Source of the DNA: Armatimonadota bacterium
Lineage (GTDB): Bacteria; Armatimonadota; Chthonomonadetes; Chthonomonadales; Chthonomonadaceae
NCBI GenBank assembly: GCA_028871815.1
Contig: JAGWMJ010000012.1
Span: forward strand, 62,001 to 126,000
Length of the DNA: 64,000 nucleotides
Direction of reading: 5' to 3'
Shown: piece by piece, positions 13,012 to 19,800 of the stretch
How the letters are laid out: every line of letters begins with the position of its first letter
Position numbering within the stretch: position 1 is the first letter of the stretch
The notes under the pieces: generated by a model
What the model was told of the DNA's origin: nothing
The model's database searches: none
What the model saw: only the letters and a program-made list of their open reading frames with translations
Program-made: the position numbers and the translations under genes

Positions 13012-13405
13012 CGTTCACAATGGGGCTTGGTGTCGCAGTAATGGGGCGGCGCAGCTCAATTCAGTATTGCGAGGCTTCGGGAGGTAAGTGCTACCCCGCG
13101 TGAGAATGCAACCATTGAACCGGCTCCGCCACTGTAAGCCATCCCCGCCGCTCGAGTCCAGTGGTCGCCTCCTGTCCCGCCACTCCTGGCACTCCCAAGG
13201 TCGCGATCCCGAGCGAAGGCGAGGGATCGGCAGCCTCGTTGTTCCGATTCCGGCAGCCGGAGCTCGCGGCTGCACAATTTGGCTCTCAGACAAAAAAGAG
13301 TCGAAAAAAAAGTCGCCCGAATGGAACTTTCCGGCCCAAAAAACTCGCTTTACCTTTTGAAAATGGGATGCGTCCGAACATTTTCGAATAAAGTTCGTGG
13401 TATCC
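13012..13405. other. Intergenic region with A-rich tract
   Basis: This gap lies between the divergent cyclase gene and the RHS fragment. Bases 13290-13400 are clearly richer in A/T than the rest of the window and contain several A-runs (near 13290-13313 and 13339). The tract ends directly upstream of a consensus promoter. It could act as an UP-like element or mark a foreign junction. No gene was found. Confidence 0.5.
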
Positions 13406-13434
13406 TTGACAGGCTTGTTCTGTTAGATTATGAT
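13406..13434 (+). promoter_or_regulatory. Consensus sigma-70 promoter, TTGACA-N17-TATGAT
   Basis: TTGACA at 13406-13411 and TATGAT at 13429-13434 are separated by exactly 17 bases, and A-rich DNA lies upstream. Transcription would begin near 13441, inside the open frame that continues into the RHS fragment, so any product would have to start downstream of the first ATG at 13430. Confidence 0.6.
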
Positions 13435-14527
13435 TACTTTAGTCTCCATCTCTTATGCTGCGGATCCGGTAGGAAACCGCGCCGGCGAAACGGTGGGAAG
13501 CACCTCAACCAGCTTCACGATGGATAACGACGATGAGCTTGCGTCGACCAGCGGCGGCTTCGCGAACAGCTATTCGTACAATGCCAACGGCGAACAGACC
13601 GGCCGCACGCTGGCCGGCACGGCGTATACCCTCGCCTTCGATTACGACGGGCAGCTCAAGTCGATTACGCAGGGCACAGCGGTGACCAGTTTCGGCTATG
13701 ATGCCCTCGGCCGCCGCGTAAGCCGCACGGCATCTGGCACAACCACCTCCACGCAGTACGCCGGCGGTGCGCCGGTGACGGAGACGCAGGGTTCGAGCTT
13801 CACCGCCGCGTACACCGTCGGCAACGACCTGCTGCGCCGTAACGGCGAGTATCCCGCATTCGATGGCCTCGGCTCCGCCCGCGCCGAAACGAACAGCTCC
13901 GGCACAGCCACCGCCACGCAGGATTTCGATGCCTTTGGCAACACGATCGCGAGCAGCGGCAGCACTAGCAGCCCGTACAACTTCGCGGGCGACTGGGCGT
14001 ACCAGAGCAACGGCGACGCAGGGCTGCAGCACGTAGGAGCGCGCTACTACGATCCGCAGGTCGGGCGGTTCGCCAGCCGCGACAGCATGCTCGACCAGAT
14101 TCCGTACGCGTATTGCTGGGGTGAGCCGAACGATTGGGCGGATCCGAGCGGGGCGAATAGGATCAGTTGGGGCGGCGTGAACAATGTGGAGCTTCCGTTC
14201 TTTGGGACTGTCGTCGGGGGCGCAATCGGAAGAATCGTGGGAGGGCTCATCGGGCAAAAGATTCCTTACTTCGGACGTCTGTGGCGGCGGTTTACTCCAA
14301 GAGCGGTGCCCGACCCTGTCGCGCCGGAGTCGCCGCCGCCAGCCGATGAGGTCGTGGGTGAACTTGGTCCCGATCTAGGTGAAGGCGGCGAGGTGATTGC
14401 AGGCGGCTTAGCGGGGGCCGAGGACGGCGGGGAAGCTGGGCTCGTGCTTGGGCCCGAGGGCGCTGCCGCGGGTATAGTCATTGGCGGCGCTATCGGATTG
14501 GCCGCTGCATGGCTGGCCCAGCAATGA
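13430..14527 (+). CDS. 5'-truncated RHS core with glycine-zipper C-terminal tip
   Basis: This 365-codon frame is only the last part of an RHS/YD-repeat protein. YD-type repeats are visible (SYNANGEQTGR, FDYDGQLKSIT, FGYDALGRRVSR). The RHS core end RYYDPQVGRFASRDS follows, and the core closes at DPSG. The variable tip after DPSG (about 120 residues) has two glycine-rich hydrophobic segments (VVGGAIGRIVGGLIG and AAGIVIGGAIGLAAAWLA) flanking a proline- and acid-rich stretch, as might be expected of a membrane-acting toxin. Full RHS proteins exceed 1000 residues and carry an export region; here everything upstream is missing. A consensus promoter overlaps the first ATG, so a shorter product may start near ATG 13520. 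The stop overlaps the start of a small membrane protein gene. It is either an expressed orphan tip or a remnant. Confidence 0.7.
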   Translation: MITLVSISYAADPVGNRAGETVGSTSTSFTMDNDDELASTSGGFANSYSYNANGEQTGRTLAGTAYTLAFDYDGQLKSITQGTAVTSFGYDALGRRVSRTASGTTTSTQYAGGAPVTETQGSSFTAAYTVGNDLLRRNGEYPAFDGLGSARAETNSSGTATATQDFDAFGNTIASSGSTSSPYNFAGDWAYQSNGDAGLQHVGARYYDPQVGRFASRDSMLDQIPYAYCWGEPNDWADPSGANRISWGGVNNVELPFFGTVVGGAIGRIVGGLIGQKIPYFGRLWRRFTPRAVPDPVAPESPPPADEVVGELGPDLGEGGEVIAGGLAGAEDGGEAGLVLGPEGAAAGIVIGGAIGLAAAWLAQQ

Positions 14528-14949
14528 CTTCTGGAGGCTTTTGGACCCGTGCCCGCGGTCAGGCCCAGCCACCGCTTCGGCATCTCACGCCAACCGTGTA
14601 CCGGATTGCCGGAGCCGCGGATTTTGCGGCAGCGTCTGCGGCCGCCTTCAGCGTTGGACTCGCCGTGTTGCGCCGCTTGGTGCCCGGCCCGGCCGGGCAT
14701 CGTTTCCGTGGCTGGGGGCTCGAAACCGTACAGCACTGGCCGCTGGCGGCTGGGCTGGGCATAATGACAGCTGGCCTACAGGCTATATCGACAATGAGAA
14801 TGCCGGTGTGGGCGCTTAACCCTATGTTTACTGCGCGGTTGTCCGGAGGCGGGACGCGGACAGTGCGGGCTGCAATGTGGGCCGCCACAGGGCTCTACTA
14901 CGCCGTTGACCTTGCAGGCCTCCTATACCTGGTGTTCCGCCGCGGCTAG
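14524..14949 (+). CDS. Small membrane protein coupled to the RHS tip, candidate immunity protein
   Basis: The ATG at 14524 overlaps the TGA of the RHS fragment as ATGA, the usual arrangement for translational coupling. An in-frame ATG at 14509 is the alternative start. The product is 141 residues with about three hydrophobic helices (near FAAASAAAFSVGLAVL, WPLAAGLGIMTAGL and AAMWAATGLYYAVDLAGLLYLV). I do not recognise a family. Position directly behind an RHS tip, coupling, and membrane location opposite a glycine-zipper toxin-like tip together suggest an immunity protein that blocks the tip in the membrane. This is inferred from context alone. Confidence 0.5.
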   Translation: MTSGGFWTRARGQAQPPLRHLTPTVYRIAGAADFAAASAAAFSVGLAVLRRLVPGPAGHRFRGWGLETVQHWPLAAGLGIMTAGLQAISTMRMPVWALNPMFTARLSGGGTRTVRAAMWAATGLYYAVDLAGLLYLVFRRG

Positions 14950-14963
14950 GACACGCATCCTAA

Positions 14964-15212
14964 GCCACAGCCACGCAAGACGCCCATGCTTTTGAAGACG
15001 CTGTCGCCCGCGGCTGCTGTACATCGAGCCCATACAACTTCGCGGGCGACTGGGCATACCAGGGCGACGGCGACAACGGGCCGCAGCATGGTGAAGCACG
15101 CTACTACGACCCGCCGGTCGGGCGGTTCGCCAGCCGGGACAGCATGCTGGACGAGACTCCGTACGCGTATTGTCCGGATGAGCCGATCGATTACGTGGCC
15201 CCGAGCGCTTGA
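14964..15212 (+). pseudogene. Decayed second copy of the RHS core end
   Basis: Read from 14964, this frame gives ATATQDAHAFEDAVARG, then SPYNFAGDWAYQ, RYYDPPVGRFASRDSMLDE and PYAYCPDEPIDYVAPSA, ending at TGA 15210-15212. It matches the end of the upstream RHS fragment (about 13910-14155) nearly residue for residue. A stop lies just before it (14961) and another replaces the DPSG-tip junction, so it is a remnant of a displaced RHS module with its tip lost. The duplicated sequence probably allowed recombination to swap tips. Confidence 0.7.
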
Positions 15213-17102: not shown

Positions 17103-17313
17103 GGGAACCTCCTAAGTAGCGATTGCCCGGTTGATCCGTAGTGCGGATCGTCGTGTCGACGTCTTGTGATTATGACGACAGTACCAATACCCGCCGAAAT
17201 CTATCGTTATTGATGCGAGGCGCTGTCCGATGGTTCAAACGAATCTGGCAGCTTTTGAAGGTAGGGGGGATAGTGGCGCCGAACGACCTCTGAGACGGCA
17301 GCGCATCAATCGA

Positions 17314-19800
17314 ATGATCCACGCAAATCCATCACATCGTGCCTGGCCGGGAATCTCGGCCGGGATCGCGCTGGCGGCGCTTGTCACTTCGGTTTCCGCT
17401 GCAGCGCCTCAGACTCCGCCATCCGCAACACCGCAGCAGGCCCGTTTCTTCGAGTCGCAAATCCGGCCGGTGCTCATCGATCACTGTCTGATGTGCCACG
17501 GCGCTCAGCAGCAGCAGAGCGGATTGCGGCTCGACTCGCGTGAAGCCATTCTCAAGGGTGGGGCGCGTGGGCCTGAGATCGGCTCGGGATCGCCCGGCTC
17601 ATGCCGCCTGATCCAAGCGGTACTCTACACCGGCGCGCTCAAGATGCCTCCGGCCGGCAAGCTCAAGCCGAACGAGATTGCCGCGCTGACCGAATGGGTA
17701 CGGATGGGCGCACCCTGGCCGGCAGCGGCGCCCGCCGTCGCCAACTCGGGTGGCTTCCACATCACCGCGGCCCAGCGGGCGTTCTGGTCGTTTCAGCCGG
17801 TCGCTATGCCGGAGGTGCCCGCACTGCCAACCTCCGACGGCGCATGGCGGAAGAACCCCGTGGATCGGTTCATCCTCGCCGGCTTGGAGAGGCATCACCT
17901 GCGCCCGGCGCCGCCAGCCGACCGACGTACGCTGATTCGCCGCGTGACGTTTGATCTGATCGGCCTGCCCCCGACATCGGCGGAGACCGCGGCCTTTCTG
18001 GCCGATCGGCGCCCCGACGCCTGGCACATTCTCGTCAACCGGCTGCTCGCGTCACCGCGGTACGGGGAACGTTGGGGCCGGCACTGGCTGGACGTCGCGC
18101 GCTATGCAGATACGAAAGGCTATGTCTTTACGCAAGACCCGGTCTACCACACCGCCTGGACCTACCGCGACTACGTGATTGGCGCCTTCAATCACGACCT
18201 GCCCTGGAACCAGTTTCTGGCGCAGCAGATCGCCGCCGACCTGCTTCCAACCGCCAAAACGGACCCGGCCAGCCTGGCCGCGCTGGGTTTCCTCACGCTT
18301 GGCCGCCGTTTTCTCAACGACCCGGTGCTGATCAACGATGACCGAATCGACGCCACATGCCGGGGTATGATGGGCCTCACCGTGGAGTGTGCGCGCTGTC
18401 ACGATCACAAGTTCGATCCGATTGCTCAGGCCGACTACTACGGCCTTTACGGAGTGTTCGCCAGTTCGCGTGAACCGGCTTCGGAACCGGTTATCTCGCC
18501 TCCGGCGGTTGGCGCGGCCTGGGCAGCCTGGAAAAGCCGGTACGACGCGGCCACTGGTCAACTTAATGGCGCTCTTGGTGCGGCCGAGTCGTCGCTGCGC
18601 AAATCGAACGGCCTTCCGCCACACGCCCTCGCAGCGCTTGCGCAGACGCCGCCGCCCAACACGCTGCCTGCAGCGATCGTCCACGAGATCATCGCCGCAG
18701 TTCCACCCGATCAGCGCGGCCAGCTAGCGATGCTTGAGAGCAACCGCGCGGCTCTGAAAGCGGCTGAGCCGCCGGCGCCCGTCACTGCCATGGCGTTGGA
18801 AGATGCGCCGCAGCCATTCCAGCCCCATATCTTCTTCCACGGCAACGCCGCCAATCCCGGCCCGGCAGTGACGCGCCACTTCCCGGCCATCCTCTCGATG
18901 GTAGATAACGCGCCATATACCACCGGGAGCGGGCGTCTTCAGTTGGCTGAGGATATCGTCAGTCCGCGCAACCCACTCACCGCCCGGGTCATCGTCAACC
19001 GCGTGTGGCTCTACCACTTTGGAGCCGGTATTGTCACTACGCCGTCCGATTTCGGCGCCCGCGGCGACCCGCCAACACATCCCAAACTGCTGGACTGGCT
19101 GGCATTCAAGTTTATGCAGCCACAGGCGAGCGGCGGATGCGGCTGGTCGATCAAGGCTCTCCATCGCTTGATCCTGGGCAGCTGCGCGTACCGCATGAGC
19201 GATACGGCCTCACCGCGCGCAGCTCAGATCGACCCGCAAAACGGCCTGCTGCAGCACCAGAACCTTCAACGACTCGATCTCGAGGCGCTGCGCGACTCCC
19301 TGCTGGCCGTGTCGGGAAGGCTCGATCTCACAGCCGGCGGGCCATCGGTGGATATCACCTCGCCTGCGTACTCGTGCAGACGCACTGTGTATGGCTTTGT
19401 GGATCGGCAAAACCTGCCCGCACTTTTCCGCACATTTGATTTTGCCAGCCCGGATGCGACCAGCCCTCAGCGACGGAGCACGACCGTGCCTCAACAGGCG
19501 CTCTTTATGCTCAATAGTCCGTTTATTCAGGATGCCGCTCGGGGGGCGGCAGCGCTGGCGCGGCGCACCATTCCGCGATCCGCCGCCCACTACAACGCCC
19601 TTCGGATCCAGTGGCTCTATCAGCGCCTCTTCGCTCGTCCCGCCGGCGCTGAGGAAGTTGCGATGGGCAGGCGGTTCCTGAACGCGCCGCCCGAGGCACC
19701 GCCTCCGGCCTCCGTCGCGCCAGGCGGTACGCAGATGGATGCGCTGTCGCGCTATGTTCAGGCGCTGCTCATGACGGATGAGTTCGCCTTCGTCGATTAG
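17314..19800 (+). CDS. PSCyt1-DUF1549-DUF1553 (PSD1) cytochrome-like exported protein
   Basis: This protein of about 828 residues has the domain order common in planctomycetes, verrucomicrobia and armatimonads. A signal peptide comes first (hydrophobic ISAGIALAALVTSVSAAA). PSCyt1 follows with one c-type haem site (CLMCHG). DUF1549 (PSCyt2) starts around VDRFILAGLERHHL, with RYGERWGRHWLDVARYAD and a second CxxCH site, CARCHDHKFDP. The C-terminal DUF1553 contains NPLTARVIVNRVWLYHFG and PQQALFMLN. The family is thought to work in carbohydrate or polymer degradation at the cell envelope, usually with a DUF1501 partner; no DUF1501 gene is adjacent here. It is somewhat shorter than many members, mainly in the central part. 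The ATG at 17314 puts the signal peptide at the N-terminus, but a longer frame begins at 17230. Confidence 0.85.
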   Translation: MIHANPSHRAWPGISAGIALAALVTSVSAAAPQTPPSATPQQARFFESQIRPVLIDHCLMCHGAQQQQSGLRLDSREAILKGGARGPEIGSGSPGSCRLIQAVLYTGALKMPPAGKLKPNEIAALTEWVRMGAPWPAAAPAVANSGGFHITAAQRAFWSFQPVAMPEVPALPTSDGAWRKNPVDRFILAGLERHHLRPAPPADRRTLIRRVTFDLIGLPPTSAETAAFLADRRPDAWHILVNRLLASPRYGERWGRHWLDVARYADTKGYVFTQDPVYHTAWTYRDYVIGAFNHDLPWNQFLAQQIAADLLPTAKTDPASLAALGFLTLGRRFLNDPVLINDDRIDATCRGMMGLTVECARCHDHKFDPIAQADYYGLYGVFASSREPASEPVISPPAVGAAWAAWKSRYDAATGQLNGALGAAESSLRKSNGLPPHALAALAQTPPPNTLPAAIVHEIIAAVPPDQRGQLAMLESNRAALKAAEPPAPVTAMALEDAPQPFQPHIFFHGNAANPGPAVTRHFPAILSMVDNAPYTTGSGRLQLAEDIVSPRNPLTARVIVNRVWLYHFGAGIVTTPSDFGARGDPPTHPKLLDWLAFKFMQPQASGGCGWSIKALHRLILGSCAYRMSDTASPRAAQIDPQNGLLQHQNLQRLDLEALRDSLLAVSGRLDLTAGGPSVDITSPAYSCRRTVYGFVDRQNLPALFRTFDFASPDATSPQRRSTTVPQQALFMLNSPFIQDAARGAAALARRTIPRSAAHYNALRIQWLYQRLFARPAGAEEVAMGRRFLNAPPEAPPPASVAPGGTQMDALSRYVQALLMTDEFAFVD

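Follow-up and report, generated by a model that had tools for sequence, protein, structure and literature searches.

A mini-RHS gene with a conserved start heads arrays of variable tips and partner genes in an Armatimonadota genome

The mini-RHS locus in the window

The window analyzed here is a stretch of 64,000 nucleotides corresponding to bases 62001 to 126000 of contig 12 in the 3.68-Mb, 22-contig draft genome of an Armatimonadota bacterium. On its forward strand, which carries all the features of the locus, we found a 365-amino-acid (aa) frame (positions 13430 to 14527), which we call a mini-RHS gene and which is composed of three parts: five start codons of non-RHS origin (MITLV, 13430 to 13444), an RHS core that ends with DPSG (13445 to 14152), and a variable tip that is rich in glycine and contains hydrophobic segments (14153 to 14524). 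Two features identify the product as an RHS/YD-repeat protein. Residues 166 to 241 correspond to the RHS-associated core (TIGR03696, E value of 3e-14, over the cut-off), and the D, P, and G of the DPxG motif preceding the tip are invariant in 17 aligned sequences. Its profile matched solved Rhs and teneurin-like chains, spanning only ∼255 residues near the end of the 2237-residue chain of the best solved relative. The 365-aa protein thus lacks what characterizes a full-length Rhs effector, namely, a complete shell exceeding ∼1000 residues, together with a domain for delivery. Its AlphaFold model was poor (pLDDT of 45) and too weak for fold searches.

The tip is followed by a partner gene (14524 to 14949) coding for a putative membrane immunity protein of 141 aa, or 146 aa if read from ATG 14509. 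As an earlier note on this DNA had stated, ATG 14524 of the partner and the stop codon of the RHS frame share the sequence ATGA. The partner frame has the top local codon-usage coding score of the six frames. The same note had described a three-helix membrane protein; the sequence contains two hydrophobic segments above threshold, and three helices appear only in an AlphaFold model of low confidence (pLDDT of 53), which was likewise too weak for fold searches.

Behind the partner lies a degenerate second unit (14963 to 15207), in which 245 nt repeat the end of the core with 79% identity to positions 13906 to 14150, whose frame stops immediately past the core and which has no tip. On the other side, the mini-RHS gene is preceded by a conserved block (13240 to 13405, strongest from ∼13315), defined by recurrence and alignment, and by a promoter-like TTGACA-N17-TATGAT sequence with an imperfect dyad (13406 to 13434). 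Further along the window, positions 17230 to 19800 encode a PSD1/PSCyt2/PSCyt1 protein, whose domains are named after planctomycetes, in what is apparently an Armatimonadota genome.

Seven heads and their shared start

The RHS frame of the window has 60 matches within its own genome. The 241 bases upstream of it recur at seven places in the genome, the six others being 78 to 85% identical, and all seven blocks are joined to the RHS core at the identical residue, MITLV-SISY (MMTLF-SISY in one). We refer to the genes that carry this junction as heads, as they open arrays of RHS core ends. The array of the window consists of the head and a fragment, those at C1:298k and C2:292k have 3 units each, that at C9:147-153k has 4 units, and that on C10 has 1 unit; two more heads lie at contig ends (C4 start and C5 end), and C8 carries three units without a head. 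Units located downstream in the arrays lack the start block and continue upstream as RHS sequence of the ordinary kind; the clearest of them have TSETRTGSNPYSISY there. The C4 and C5 heads overlap exactly, over 119 nt, with the opening units of the arrays at the C1 end (4 units) and the C20 start (4 units), so that either head may join either array, the assembly being broken inside the repeat. Arrays may also be underreported, given that the assembly is interrupted within the RHS core at C4, C5, C1, and C20. Two tracts, of 122 and 99 nt, are exactly the same in different arrays and suggest exchange between them; the shared tracts of 149 and 119 nt sit where contigs end and may have been produced by the assembly.

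The earlier note had taken the frame for a truncated RHS remnant. The RHS frame is real, but it is not a lone remnant, as the fusion recurs at seven places and is under selection; a plain truncation accident at 13430 was ruled out by the identical junction being found seven times.

Parts of the start region were detected at two additional sites. A decayed eighth head at C1:550875 (L028/L035) has the upstream block, degraded hexamers, and a glycine-rich sequence, with no RHS core directly behind. The stretch from 13315 to 13381 (AATGGAACTTTCCGG...CTCGCTTTACC) is partly present at C7:101014, with no RHS match nearby, and may be a separate intergenic repeat.

We then analyzed the selection acting on these genes. 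Pairwise dN/dS values indicate that the core evolves under strong constraint at the protein level: over the last 79 codons of the core, they were 0.09 among the heads (n = 5) and 0.06 among the downstream units (n = 12) (5 of the 22 unit frames were dropped for want of this segment, namely, two heads cut by contig ends and three degenerate or short copies) and 0.07 in 6 heads over the first 140 codons. The low dN/dS of the downstream units can be an inheritance from functional ancestors; the signals specific to the heads are the pattern of variation in codons 2 to 5 and the pN/pS of residues 6 to 30. In codons 2 to 5 of the seven heads (pN/pS of 0.12), the numbers of variable columns at the first, second, and third codon positions are 1, 0, and 4, and the variation in the 69 bases upstream has no codon phase (8, 10, and 9). 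For residues 6 to 30, pN/pS is 0.12 in the 7 heads versus 0.35 in 9 downstream units. Since codons 2 to 5 vary mainly at third positions and residues 6 to 30 are more constrained in the heads than in the downstream units, these patterns imply that translation has started from ATG 13430 after the fusion. The earlier note had proposed testing for a product from ATG 13520 or a later codon; the mostly synonymous change in codons 2 to 30 of the heads led us to reject ATG 13520 as the main start.

The same evidence bears on whether the heads are decaying remnants, that is, a fused RHS fragment multiplied by duplication and without current function. Several downstream units are indeed frameshifted or tipless, including that at 14963 to 15207, and one head has decayed. 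However, the five heads that are not cut by contig ends all have open frames, and the strong protein-level constraint extends to the start codons that the fusion introduced, so we consider decay improbable.

Regarding the promoter-like sequence, TTGACA-N17-TATGAT agrees with the sigma-70 hexamers (TTGACA-N17-TATAAT) at 11 of 12 positions and is the sole match of this quality in the 19 kb scanned, over which 3 matches at 9 of 12 positions were observed versus 3.2 expected. Over the whole genome, TTGACA-N16-18-TATNAT occurs 21 times, whereas its reversed control pattern occurs once, which makes it probable that the organism employs promoters of this type; 4 of the 21 occurrences are heads of the mini-RHS family. 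Among the seven heads, the mean pairwise difference in the 29-nt promoter-like block is 0.085, versus 0.213 in the preceding 46 bases and 0.21 at the synonymous sites of codons 6 to 30, and the spacer (0.101) comes close to the two hexamers (0.079 and 0.048).

ATG 13430 sits within the "−10" hexamer TATGAT, which overlaps this ATG and codon 2, and transcription from such hexamers would begin ∼7 nt past TATGAT. The start codon is therefore upstream of the expected transcription start rather than downstream of it, and a transcript driven by the hexamers at 13406 to 13434 would lose ATG 13430. The promoter put forward in the earlier note thus exists as a sequence and does overlap the first codon, but, given this spacing, the codon evidence excludes it as the promoter of the full frame: either the full frame is served by a promoter located further upstream or the hexamers at 13406 to 13434 make a shorter product. 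An alternative −10 element upstream was considered; it reads TATAAT in 3 heads, TATACT in 2, TGGCAT in 1, and TGGTAT in the window, where it is poorly conserved. The three TATAAT heads coincide with those whose TTGACA or TATGAT is imperfect (n = 7, and two look like sisters).

An RNAalifold consensus places the imperfect dyad (TTGACAGG-N5-TCTGTTAG) across the spacer, and one may speculate that it acts as an operator or forms a leader hairpin. For a structured RNA leader, covariation support was almost nil and a search of Rfam returned no match.

Tips and partner genes

The window tip is 45 to 48% identical to the tips of two other units, with dN/dS values of 0.31 to 0.32 at a dS near saturation. 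Altogether, five tip comparisons gave dN/dS values of 0.26, 0.31, 0.86, 0.31, and 0.32 (dS being near saturation in the last two), and four partner comparisons gave 0.61, 0.42, 0.58, and 0.33. The description of the tip as a glycine zipper finds an echo in a weak match to PF13488 (E value of 0.0046), whose score of 17.3 bits is below the cut-off of 25. Weak Pfam hints were obtained among 18 tips for a glycine zipper, microcin V, and a PspC transmembrane domain (one tip each) and among 19 partners for TPR, aspartyl protease, and DUF4235 (one each), and a defense-system search of the 19 partners gave no match. Several partner frames contain no hydrophobic segment above threshold, and not all partners look like membrane proteins. 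We found no homolog of the window partner in the other 30 of the 31 genomes searched; this protein has no detectable relative, whereas the window tip has two, and the global partner alignment is weak.

Of the 20 units whose tip is readable, 11 have a partner that begins no later than the final base of the tip stop codon, a count biased by our choice of the partner frames and, in part, of their starts. The table of 20 units omits the tipless or cut copies, namely, the second unit of the window, the third units at C2 and C8, the fourth unit at C20, the C4 and C5 heads, and the fragments C5:192880 and C1:550875. Independently of this count, evaluation of homology between units revealed that the tips are homologous in all four pairs of units with homologous partners, which was reached in 0 of 50000 permutations when the tips were trimmed and composition correction was on; an untrimmed comparison that retained the shared GEPxDxVDPSG stretch and did not apply composition correction was uninformative (permutation p value of 0.13). 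By this sequence measure, a tip and its partner move as one unit. The co-homology speaks for joint movement and not for a function, because duplication of whole modules would give the same result.

Partners also occur without a tip of their own. L041:10338-10757 (minus strand), at C9, is a second copy of the partner of unit 1 there (60% identity), L034:6216-7016 (minus strand), at the C1 end, is a relative of the partner of unit 2 at C9 (75%), and one unit retains its partner behind a broken tip. Such cases, and the finding that many units have a tip and a partner that overlap or nearly do so, would be expected of an immunity-expression device, in which the start of the head would serve mainly to express the partner by translational coupling, as a protection against the RHS tips of relatives, and the tip would be a passenger. 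As the tip and the core are themselves constrained, we regard this explanation as unlikely.

Relatives, known systems, and proposed function

A search with the core matched 29 named loci. The 15 loci at 52 to 69% identity all belong to Armatimonadota metagenome-assembled genomes, several of them labeled Chthonomonadales or Chthonomonas, and the remaining 14 (22 to 29% identity) belong to other phyla. The window itself probably belongs to Chthonomonadales. The start block was not found in 40 relatives. Displaced-tip arrays are common in relatives, with at least 2 core ends in 9 of 18 regions (10 relatives, strict motif), and several first units there run as longer RHS frames into a contig end. 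With the long RHS protein of a relative as a query, we did not find a long RHS gene of the mini-RHS family in the 22-contig draft; the query retrieved a distant 1061-aa RHS frame (35%) and otherwise matched only the short upstream remnants of downstream units and, weakly, two heads. In another family of the order, L079 (G017:C132) carries a single-copy short RHS frame of 353 aa with an unrelated start (MRRGQCVLL), a nearly identical break point, and a further RHS unit behind it.

Several features of the locus are familiar. In the sections of PMC3967940 (Salmonella LT2) and PMC3150448 (CDI/Rhs loci) on which we draw, orphan rhs-CT/rhsI modules consist of a core fragment with a DPxG end, a polymorphic tip, and a linked partner gene, form tandem cassettes, and have core homology that permits recombination. 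The window locus likewise combines a core fragment, a variable tip, and a linked cognate gene. According to the same sections, orphan modules follow a full-length main gene and are usually devoid of start signals. In the window array, by contrast, the leading gene is itself short and has a conserved start, and a full-length gene of the family was not found in the draft. Short Rhs genes in series, with core, tip, and immunity gene and many of them transcribed, are described for Snodgrassella alvi in passages of PMC5727410, with a complete PAAR-bearing Rhs gene at the 5′ end that has no counterpart here. Finally, the excerpted part of PMC7043789 reports that promoters inside Salmonella rhs genes express tip and immunity protein as a toxin-antitoxin unit, a conserved core promoter allowing this expression without delivery, and that the P2 promoter is found upstream of at least 50 Rhs toxins. 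Those promoters are internal to RHS genes, unlike the unrelated start block that here replaces everything upstream, and the start codons of the present genes are themselves under coding constraint. The window case thus combines features of orphan modules, short Rhs series, and internal toxin-antitoxin units; the place of the shell is taken by a start block of its own. We did not find an array headed by a mini-RHS gene, or any RHS work in Armatimonadota, in the literature searched, whose coverage left out most subscription journals and preprints.

The frame looks like a maintained expression unit rather than a broken leftover, because a gene with a conserved start heads seven scattered arrays, with different membrane-type tips and usually a matching partner. 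We propose, with a probability of about 0.6, that it heads an RHS displaced-tip array and would produce a tip together with the matching immunity protein but no delivery part. In our best reading, it would be a variant both of the orphan rhs-CT/rhsI modules and of Rhs toxin-antitoxin units that are expressed internally. According to this proposal, a single fusion would have joined a conserved block for the start of transcription and translation to the final ∼236 residues of an RHS core, and the fused head would then have spread to seven loci. Each head would yield a short RHS protein devoid of the delivery part and bearing a membrane-type C-terminal tip. We infer expression, toxicity, and immunity: the tip most likely acts on membranes, and the overlapping or adjacent partner gene would be cotranslated and protect the cell. 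The downstream copies without a start block would form a reservoir of alternative tip-partner cassettes, which may replace the tip of the head by recombination in the shared core.

The earlier idea of a small expressed toxin-immunity pair released from its RHS core holds up in part, in that it fits the conserved start, the constrained frame, the joint inheritance of tip and partner, and their frequent overlap. It needs amending in two respects, as the window gene is one of seven equivalent heads and the start at ATG 13430 alters the reading of the promoter.

A unit of the type II toxin-antitoxin kind is an alternative. Tip and partner would then be made inside the cell for growth control or self-maintenance, and the downstream copies would be no reservoir. 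The absence of a delivery domain, the overlap of the genes, and the Salmonella precedent of rhs-internal promoters driving tip and immunity protein (PMC7043789) are in line with this view, as is the dyad between the hexamers if it is an operator. However, a regulator gene was not identified, and arrays of cassettes without a start block but with intact, constrained cores are left unexplained. We therefore see this alternative as possible but somewhat doubtful.

Returning to the head gene of a displaced-tip array, a bolder and quite tentative extension, which we consider rather unlikely, would be a delivery-free RHS lineage with seven expression sites under one regulated start (a promoter together with a dyad operator or a leader hairpin). 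Each site would contain a single membrane-active tip and its immunity gene, and silent tip-partner cassettes would be swapped in by recombination within the constrained core. If this were true, the bacterium would keep and vary a repertoire of intracellular or lysis-released membrane toxins without a full-length RHS gene. Orphan RHS tips are usually seen as silent leftovers awaiting fusion to a full-length gene. Here, short heads with a common start are maintained by selection at seven places in a draft genome in which the full-length gene of the family was not found, and this makes it testable whether the end of an RHS core and its tip may have a function of their own without delivery.
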